This document shows positions 6,929-27,970 of a DNA stretch of 64,000 nt, one piece after another; within the stretch, counting starts at the first letter, position 1, and each line of letters opens with the position of its first letter. Under the pieces are notes generated by a model. That model had not been told where the DNA came from and did no database searches. It saw only the letters and a list, made by a program, of their open reading frames with translations. Both the position numbers and the translations under genes were made by a program. The stretch is taken from the NCBI GenBank assembly GCA_902580215.1, contig CACHJT010000001.1, positions 105,775-169,774 on the forward strand, written 5' to 3'. Source of the stretch: an uncultured Candidatus Actinomarina sp. GTDB taxonomy: Bacteria > Actinomycetota > Acidimicrobiia > Actinomarinales > Actinomarinaceae.

Positions 6929-7264
6929 ATGGAAAGTGATAAATCAACTAATTTTTTTGAATTAGATATTCGTGTTGGAAAAATAATTAAAGCAGAAATT
7001 TTCGAAGAGGCTAAAAAACCAGCATACAAACTGATAATTGATTTTGGTGATTTAATTGGCACTAAAAAAACTAGTGCTCAGATAACAAACTATAAATTAG
7101 ATGATCTTCAAGAAAAGCCTTGTATAGCAGTCATAAATCTTGGAAATAAACAAATAGGACCATTTATAAGTGAGTGCTTAGTTTTAGGATCAATTGCTGA
7201 AAATGGAGATGTTTTATTACTTCAGCCATCTGATAAAGCAGAGCTTGGAGATAAGGTCTCCTAA
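6929..7264 (+). CDS. csaA: CsaA-like tRNA-binding-domain protein
   Basis: Stand-alone OB-fold tRNA-binding domain of the CsaA/MetRS C-terminal type, 111 residues, the family's usual length. FFELDIRVGKIIKAE near the N-terminus, the central KKTSAQITNYK and the end GSIAENGDVLLLQPS match CsaA. Described roles for the family are export chaperone activity and tRNA binding, so the cellular function here is not certain. The 3' end overlaps the converging selenoprotein-candidate gene by 4 bases. Confidence 0.88.
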   Translation: MESDKSTNFFELDIRVGKIIKAEIFEEAKKPAYKLIIDFGDLIGTKKTSAQITNYKLDDLQEKPCIAVINLGNKQIGPFISECLVLGSIAENGDVLLLQPSDKAELGDKVS

Positions 7265-7734
7265 CCTATCTTATTCTCGAAATACTTAGGATAAAATGTA
7301 CCGACTCTTCTTCCAAGTTTTTCACCTTCACTATTAATCAATACATACGTTGGAGTGTTGTTTAATTTATATCTTTCAATAAACTCATGATCTTTTTGCT
7401 TACTTGCATTTATAGAAACAAAATAAACATCTGGATTTTTCTTTTTAAATTCATCAACTATGAATTTTGAAGCAGTGCAACCTAGTCAATAATCTGAGTA
7501 AAACTCAATTATTGAATATTGGTAATCTGATATATTATAGGAGTCATCAACCATACTTCGTTTTGATGTATAAAAAATTAGAAATCCAAATATACCAATT
7601 ACAAATAAACTTAGAAAGTAAAGTACAGTTATAGGCTCATATGCAATAAAAATGATAGCAAGTCCGACAACCCATACTGTAGGTAAGTAAAGCAAACTAT
7701 ATCTATTTAATATTCTTAGAAACTTTTTTTTCAT
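7261..7734 (-). CDS. Candidate selenoprotein: membrane-anchored thioredoxin with UxxC active site
   Basis: The frame starts at ATG 7732-7734, meets TGA at 7486-7488 and continues open to TAG at 7261-7263; with the TGA decoded it gives 157 residues. Residues 13-31 and 35-55 are two membrane helices. SIIEFYSDY at 74-82 matches the beta strand leading into a thioredoxin active site, and the TGA (residue 83) sits at the first Cys of CxxC: U83-L-G-C86. Downstream are a helix (TASKFIVDEF), a strand (DVYFVSINA) and the cis-proline segment NNTPTYVLI (Pro128) followed by GEKLGRRVG. TGA is an ordinary stop elsewhere (infA, rpsH, cbiQ). A SECIS-like hairpin follows. Two helices and basic flanks place the domain in the cytoplasm. 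Alternatives are a nonsense mutation or a TGC-to-TGA sequencing error. Divergent from a Fur-family gene. Confidence 0.78.
7441..7472 (-). promoter_or_regulatory. Candidate bacterial SECIS element
   Basis: Just after the in-frame TGA the mRNA can form an 8-bp perfect stem AAATTCAT/ATGAATTT (7467-7460 with 7454-7447) closed by the 5-base loop AGTTG (7459-7455). A lower CTT/AAG stem (7472-7470 with 7443-7441) can extend it across a small internal loop. The loop G is its second base, and 27 bases separate it from the TGA. Bacterial SECIS models call for a small apical loop with G in the first two positions roughly 16-37 bases after UGA. The element lies wholly inside coding sequence, as in known bacterial selenoprotein genes. 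Confidence 0.65.
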
Positions 7735-27799: not shown

Positions 27800-27940
27800 A
27801 AAGACTGCTGTAAATTGTCTCTGTTCACAGATTTCTCTATGTTTTTAAACAATTTATTACGACTGCAGAGCCGAGTATGCATCCGCCGAATGTTTCGATA
27901 ACATACTTCCTCGTCACCTTTTTCAAGGCCTGGCGCTAAT
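27800..27940 (-). ncRNA. glmS self-cleaving ribozyme
   Basis: The minus strand upstream of glmS carries the glmS ribozyme core. AGCGCC follows the cleavage position (A 27937, G 27936), then come GTGACGAGG, TTATCGAAACATTCGGCGGATG, a CATACTCGG segment and GTCGTAA; these match the conserved catalytic core in order. The variable P4-type hairpin (ATTGT/ACAAT) follows. Glucosamine 6-phosphate acts as cofactor in the known class. The 3' limit is approximate. An 8-base inverted repeat (27783-27790 with 27941-27948) encloses the ribozyme. Confidence 0.9.
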
Positions 27941-27970
27941 TGCTCGTTATTACAATTATAAGAAACTTAT

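Follow-up and report, generated by a model that had tools for sequence, protein, structure and literature searches.

A predicted selenocysteine codon in a gene for a putative membrane-anchored thioredoxin of Candidatus Actinomarina

Can a TGA codon that occupies the place of a catalytic cysteine in a thioredoxin-like gene be part of the coding sequence rather than its end? This question is raised by a reading frame in a stretch of 64,000 nucleotides, hereafter called the window, from the genome of an uncultured Candidatus Actinomarina species. The initial annotation, which gave no strand, described an 82-codon front half ending in IIEFYSDY, a TGA codon, and a 74-codon continuation carrying NNTPTYVLI and GEKLGRRVG, and proposed that the whole might encode a membrane selenoprotein. 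All of these elements are present as claimed, and the frame runs along the minus strand from position 7734 to position 7261, with the TGA being the complement of positions 7486-7488. If this codon is read as selenocysteine (Sec), the product has 157 residues including U83 and C86, its active site reads SDY-U-LGC, and translation ends at a TAG codon at positions 7263-7261. The features of the gene are as follows.

7261 to 7734, minus strand: whole gene, 157 codons plus a TAG stop, with the TGA as codon 83 (predicted Sec)
7642 to 7701, minus strand: first predicted membrane helix, about residues 12-31 by hydropathy (helix 2-31 in the structure model)
7564 to 7635, minus strand: second predicted membrane helix, residues 34-57 by hydropathy (helix 34-57 in the structure model)
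7264 to 7560, minus strand: thioredoxin-fold domain, residues 59-157
7486 to 7488, minus strand: TGA codon 83, predicted Sec replacing the first catalytic Cys
7477 to 7479, minus strand: Cys86, predicted resolving residue, aligned to the second thioredoxin Cys and in a column that is invariant in 33 DNA rows
7448 to 7466, minus strand: predicted SECIS hairpin with a 7-bp stem and an AGUUG loop
7351 to 7353, minus strand: Pro128 of TPT, predicted cis-proline, near-invariant across 15 rows

The proposal that the TGA replaces the first cysteine of a CxxC motif (U-L-G-C) is borne out by solved thioredoxins, whose first active-site cysteine aligns to residue 83 and whose second aligns to Cys86. We take Pro128 to be the cis-proline of thioredoxins. 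With C put in place of U, the protein passes the cut-off of the Pfam Thioredoxin model (24.9 bits; cut-off 23.5) and scores just under that of Thioredoxin_2 (26.1 bits; cut-off 27). A structure model lends support to the suggested combination of two membrane helices and a thioredoxin fold, in that it predicts a helical hairpin plus a thioredoxin fold whose active site opens the first helix of the domain.

The host genome comprises 996,069 bases in 23 contigs and is 87% complete. Eight neighboring genes recur around the TGA gene in 10 of 10 loci of close relatives, a count that leaves out the gene for a Fur-family regulator; this regulator and an FMN reductase are among the neighbors. Standard gene calling would cut the thioredoxin gene in half. 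The open frame beyond the TGA is by itself weak evidence for a coding function, because in-frame continuations of at least 73 open codons follow 16 of the 145 window open reading frames (ORFs) of at least 60 amino acids, a number that includes the studied gene and takes in true neighboring genes and antisense frames. Since a continuation of this length is not rare in the window, the case for the gene rests on comparison.

Conservation of the TGA codon within the genus

Orthologues were found in 33 of the 42 genomes of the genus, including the genome under study (198 genomes searched, 35 matched). In every one of these 33 orthologues, codon 83 is an in-frame TGA, and the frame is open both before and after it. 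The best match per genus genome contains exactly one internal stop, which is this TGA. Random stops at this codon occur in none of the orthologues. Because all 33 orthologues keep the TGA at codon 83 with flanking open frames, chance can be excluded as its origin. The orthologues other than the window copy itself share 47-94% identity with it, and their length is 157 in 32 cases and 156 in the remaining one. Their terminal stops are TAA (21), TAG (11), and TGA (1).

A profile search of 395 genomes of the class, an even draw from a larger group, recovered only the same 33 genomes, with one TGA each. The two other genomes that matched in the initial search contain stop-free matches of 29-30%, and weak second matches in five genus genomes either have no stop (three) or have TAA (two). 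Upstream of the TGA, pN averages 0.22 and pS 0.68; downstream, the means are 0.21 for pN and 0.60 for pS, as computed from 496 pairs of which many are near saturation at synonymous sites, and from which L064, the orthologue of shifted length, was excluded. Judged from these substitution patterns, purifying selection is acting on both sides of the TGA.

All eight genus genomes that are at least 90% complete carry the gene. It is absent from nine genomes that are 51-87% complete (G002, G006, G014, G015, G021, G023, G027, G034, and G035). The adjacent gene for a tRNA-binding (CsaA-like) protein likewise gave no match in these same nine genomes, in a search run without a positive control. Because this neighbor is unmatched too, its absence suggests that the region is missing from the assemblies (or has been lost), rather than that a single gene was lost.

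Selenocysteine machinery and a predicted SECIS hairpin

The selenoprotein assignment of the initial annotation depends on the presence of selB and of selC, the gene for tRNA-Sec. Both are present in the genome, together with selA and selD. The tRNA-Sec scores 75.4 bits (cut-off 47), covers all 91 model positions, and has the anticodon TCA, and selA scores 381.5 bits. A selB candidate adjoins selA and scores 184.8 bits over profile positions 2-566, which is under the NCBI cut-off of 242.25; a different ORF, which lies in the window, reaches 206.7 bits against the selB profile, over positions 1-332 only. The candidate carries the SelB winged-helix domain, and its best solved relative is SelB (4zu9) over residues 3-542. 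The selD gene (L015:1450-2541, G000:C2) scores 372.9 bits and has an in-frame TGA at HGSG-U-ACK, such that selD itself is a predicted selenoprotein gene. Its frame closes with two consecutive TGA codons.

Another candidate selenoprotein gene in this genome is SelW-like (Rdx, PF10262; L083:1495-1731, G000:C2, about 52.2 kb). It reads CVVU with TGA at the Sec place, and a second TGA serves as its real stop. Both selD and this gene are of types already known to contain Sec. AhpC-TSA proteins are encoded at five places in the same genome, none of which has an internal stop.

The search for selB and selD was confined to the genome under study, and the other components were sought throughout the genus. 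A tRNA-Sec scores above 70 bits in 40 of the 42 genus genomes and above the cut-off in 41; that of G002 is doubtful at 48 bits, and G038 has none over the cut-off. Scores for selA exceed the cut-off in 34 of the 42. Six of the 33 genomes that carry the TGA gene are without selA over the cut-off, including G038, which also is without tRNA-Sec, and all six are 63-77% complete.

A candidate signal for Sec insertion is formed by nucleotides +20 to +26 after the TGA pairing with +32 to +38, which places the loop 26 nt from the TGA. In a gapless alignment of 60 nt counted from the TGA (33 sequences, 28 distinct), seven pairs are standard in every row, and five of these are invariant among the 28 distinct rows. 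Of the two varying pairs, one alternates among U-A, U-G, and C-G and the other between A-U and G-U, and thus one of the seven pairs exhibits a two-sided compensatory change (U-A to C-G). The loop conforms to AGUUR, with AGTTG in 18 copies and AGTTA in 15. An outer eighth pair (7467 with 7447) is present in the window copy and is formed in 15 of 33.

The percentage paired, the number of cells with two-sided change, and the covariation score lie above those of all 500 shuffles, whereas 253 of the 500 reach the observed numbers of two-sided pairs and of pair types. Shifting the partner by 1-3 columns lowers pairing to 14-56%, a comparison to be read with the fact that the structure was itself derived from these sequences. 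Furthermore, no other six-codon window has a same-codon fraction as high as that of codons +6 to +11 (0.956; window mean 0.571, sd 0.105), and the ATA and GTT codons within this segment are kept in 33 of 33. The hairpin thus coincides with the gene's highest peak of synonymous constraint.

The bacterial SECIS (bSECIS) consensus given in PMC13188914 comprises a loop of 3-9 nt, a stem of 4-16 bp, a G at loop position one or two, and a distance of 16-37 nt from the UGA. The hairpin described herein, with its 5-nt loop, seven conserved pairs, G as the second loop nucleotide, and spacing of 26 nt, falls within this geometry. Its predicted energies of -6.3 kcal/mol (69 nt) and -6.0 kcal/mol (46 nt) do not reach the limit of -7.5 kcal/mol or lower that the same source gives for its model, a model that, according to that source, a subset of genes fails. 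Compared with shuffled sequences, the 69-nt segment folds worse than the mean (z +1.00) and the 46-nt segment no better (z -0.37). Because these folds are no better than those of shuffles, we do not count stability as evidence for the hairpin, and rely instead on its conservation.

In the SelW-like gene, a 6-bp hairpin is predicted to start 18 nt after the TGA and to carry an identical AGUUG loop, and this shared sequence may hint at how SelB recognizes its targets. The strongest hairpin predicted for selD is without an AGUUR loop. A whole-genome search for the loop pattern with up to two mismatches yielded 54 and 48 matches; the reversed control gave 64 and 61. A strict scan, in which the window was searched for a TGA followed by an AGTTR loop on a stem of 6 bp or more, returned the TGA thioredoxin gene alone, and scans with five permuted loop pairs returned 2, 2, 4, 0, and 0 matches, none flanked by open frames. 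Because the strict scan was designed after the gene had been seen, it speaks to specificity and not to discovery. When the loop was relaxed to AGTTN and 155,429 bases of partly overlapping loci from the same genome were scanned, nine distinct matches were obtained. In only two of these, the thioredoxin gene and the SelW-like gene, does the frame stay open for more than 15 codons past the TGA.

Competing readings of codon 83

Because every one of the 33 orthologues has TGA at the catalytic position and the genome contains the Sec genes, we consider it very likely, with a probability of about 95%, that the in-frame TGA encodes Sec. It is also highly probable that decoding is carried out by SelA, SelB, SelD, and tRNA-Sec of the same genome as directed by the predicted hairpin. 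Three other readings of the codon deserve attention.

If the code were reassigned or readthrough leaky, TGA could specify Trp or another near-cognate residue to give a W-L-G-C protein. This idea draws on protein databases, where searches of 5.8 billion proteins gave 44, 87, and 72 matches, all of which are, by identity, members of the TGA-thioredoxin family or pieces thereof. Among the 87 proteins of the second search, all 78 that show residue 83, predictions from short contigs, have W there (77 by pattern, plus P0073) and none has Cys; the count leaves out the nine that do not show the site, three of which end at SDY. Full-length entries such as P0003 carry W at the TGA. Most likely, this W stems from short contigs having been translated with code 4 during gene calling. 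Moreover, as the initial annotation observed for several neighbors, TGA is used as an ordinary stop: it terminates 15 of the 70 ORFs in the window that span 120 amino acids or more, and also the SelW-like gene and one orthologue. The tRNA-Trp in the window has the anticodon CCA, some copies with TGG would be expected among the 33 orthologues if Trp were the residue, and the full Sec machinery is present. Taken together, these observations make a Trp reading extremely improbable.

We give just as little credence to the TGA being a plain stop that releases an 82-residue membrane peptide, with the downstream half being a separate or decaying frame. Three database entries (P0041, P0086, and P0087) do terminate at the place of the TGA. 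Yet the terminal stops of the genus and of the orthologues are mostly TAA or TAG, while TGA occurs at codon 83 in every orthologue. The downstream half, on which purifying selection acts as it does on the upstream half, appears in the structure model to complete the thioredoxin fold and is constant in length. Entry P0041 holds the front half as an 87-amino-acid protein with the source name c-di-AMP phosphodiesterase-like protein.

Cysteine insertion at UGA by the Sec machinery has been reported for some bacteria, and partial or complete insertion of cysteine at residue 83 would create an ordinary thioredoxin CxxC site. However, the genome has selA and selD, which serve to produce the selenium form, and selD has a Sec-type TGA of its own. 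A lineage that uses only cysteine would also be served by a Cys codon, which is seen in none of the 33 orthologues, and we therefore regard this possibility as very unlikely.

Function and relation to known families

If, as is very likely, the TGA encodes Sec, SelB would bind the AGUUR loop and bring Sec-tRNA to the UGA codon. Sec83 could then act as the attacking selenolate on disulfides or oxidized thiols, with Cys86 as the resolving residue. The two N-terminal helices are predicted to form a hairpin with both ends cytosolic, and the thioredoxin domain would lie on the cytosolic side because both hairpin ends are predicted there. This topology call is weakened because, in 7 of the 33 copies, the turn between the helices contains a basic residue. 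One possibility is that the protein is a thiol-disulfide reductase tethered to the inner side of the membrane that serves oxidized proteins in or near the membrane, and we give such a cytosolic reductase role an even chance. When selenium is lacking, translation would be expected to halt and leave the 82-residue membrane hairpin.

The proposed search for homologues with Cys or TGA at this site shows that the close family has TGA throughout 33 genomes, and no Cys form at residue 83 was found among 5.8 billion proteins or 395 class genomes. Cysteine at the aligned position occurs in distant thioredoxins only. Viral contigs gave 16 pattern matches, with no relatives among them. Some members of the genus also encode a separate 161-amino-acid thioredoxin-like protein with WCLEC and a lipoprotein-like start (L084, G033:C1; L085, G018:C3), whose similarity to the thioredoxin domain of the TGA gene is distant.

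Of the 12 NCBIfam models matched by the protein at E up to 1, none reaches its cut-off. TrxA (TIGR01068) has the same fold and an aligned active site, but the studied protein scores 29.5 bits against it (cut-off 96.8), has membrane helices, and carries TGA at the first Cys. DsbD and membrane thiol-disulfide interchange proteins also join a thioredoxin-like domain to membrane helices, and there is a weak match to the C-terminal part of DsbD; however, the score is 16.7 bits (NF001419; cut-off 330), and the studied protein has only two helices, which are N-terminal, and a domain predicted to be cytosolic. The marine selenoprotein GOS_C (NF045500), as described, resembles the studied protein in its Trx-like fold and UxxC motif, and is not among the 12 matched models.

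Thioredoxins in which Sec replaces the first Cys of CxxC are known, including the anonymous Trx-like families of ocean surveys (PMC13188914; GOS Trx-like 1 and 3). These share the fold, whereas the gene described herein adds two predicted N-terminal helices, has no Cys homologue that we could find, and, within the set of genomes searched, is restricted to a single genus. It is possible, though rather unlikely, that the family has already been catalogued without an organism as one of these groups. In the table of the GOS survey, Trx-like 1 (COG0526, UxxC) is represented by 321 sequences and Trx-like 3 (UxxC, matching cd02950 weakly) by 212 sequences from 33 samples, and fragments of the family could be present in such surveys under an anonymous Trx-like label. 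However, the table assigns 7,880 and 183 Cys homologues, respectively, to these two groups, which we compared with the TGA-thioredoxin family by table description only, and none was found for the latter. In the Sargasso survey, as far as its account goes, a TGA frame was kept only if it had at least two Cys homologues, and the failure of all 12 NCBIfam models to reach a cut-off also argues against prior cataloguing. Because the survey families have Cys homologues and none was found here, these surveys may have missed the family.

The initial annotation knew of no described selenoprotein with a two-helix thioredoxin layout. The portions of the literature consulted agree, with the anonymous ocean Trx-like families being compared by description only. 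What is apparently new is the combination of UxxC thioredoxin chemistry with an anchor of two predicted helices, in a family that is apparently Sec-only and that the genomes searched show in one genus. In the open-licence literature, we found no paper that links Actinomarina to selenocysteine or selenoproteins. The title of PMC7771536 describes Actinomarinales as a highly streamlined epipelagic order, and a term search of the available portion of this genome paper gave no match; PMC12008989, in the portion available, concerns selenate reduction in a sister order.

On the basis of these comparisons, we conclude that the gene encodes a putative lineage-specific, apparently Sec-only, membrane-anchored thioredoxin. 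We lean toward the broader proposal that this protein is confined to Candidatus Actinomarina, small-celled and gene-poor organisms that keep the whole Sec apparatus for a handful of proteins, that no Cys version exists anywhere, and that the family is invisible both to gene calling and to searches relying on Cys homologues. If Actinomarina decodes Sec, then it requires selenium, which bears on efforts to cultivate these so far uncultured marine bacteria. A family of redox proteins that apparently never uses Cys, in genomes in which gene loss is favored, would provide a clean case for the question of why Sec is used over Cys. Methods that search for Sec/Cys pairs can miss Sec-only families, and synonymous constraint downstream of a conserved TGA can reveal them.

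Elsewhere in the window of this marine actinobacterial genome, a glmS ribozyme is located on the minus strand at positions 27802-27948 (89.1 bits; cut-off 37).
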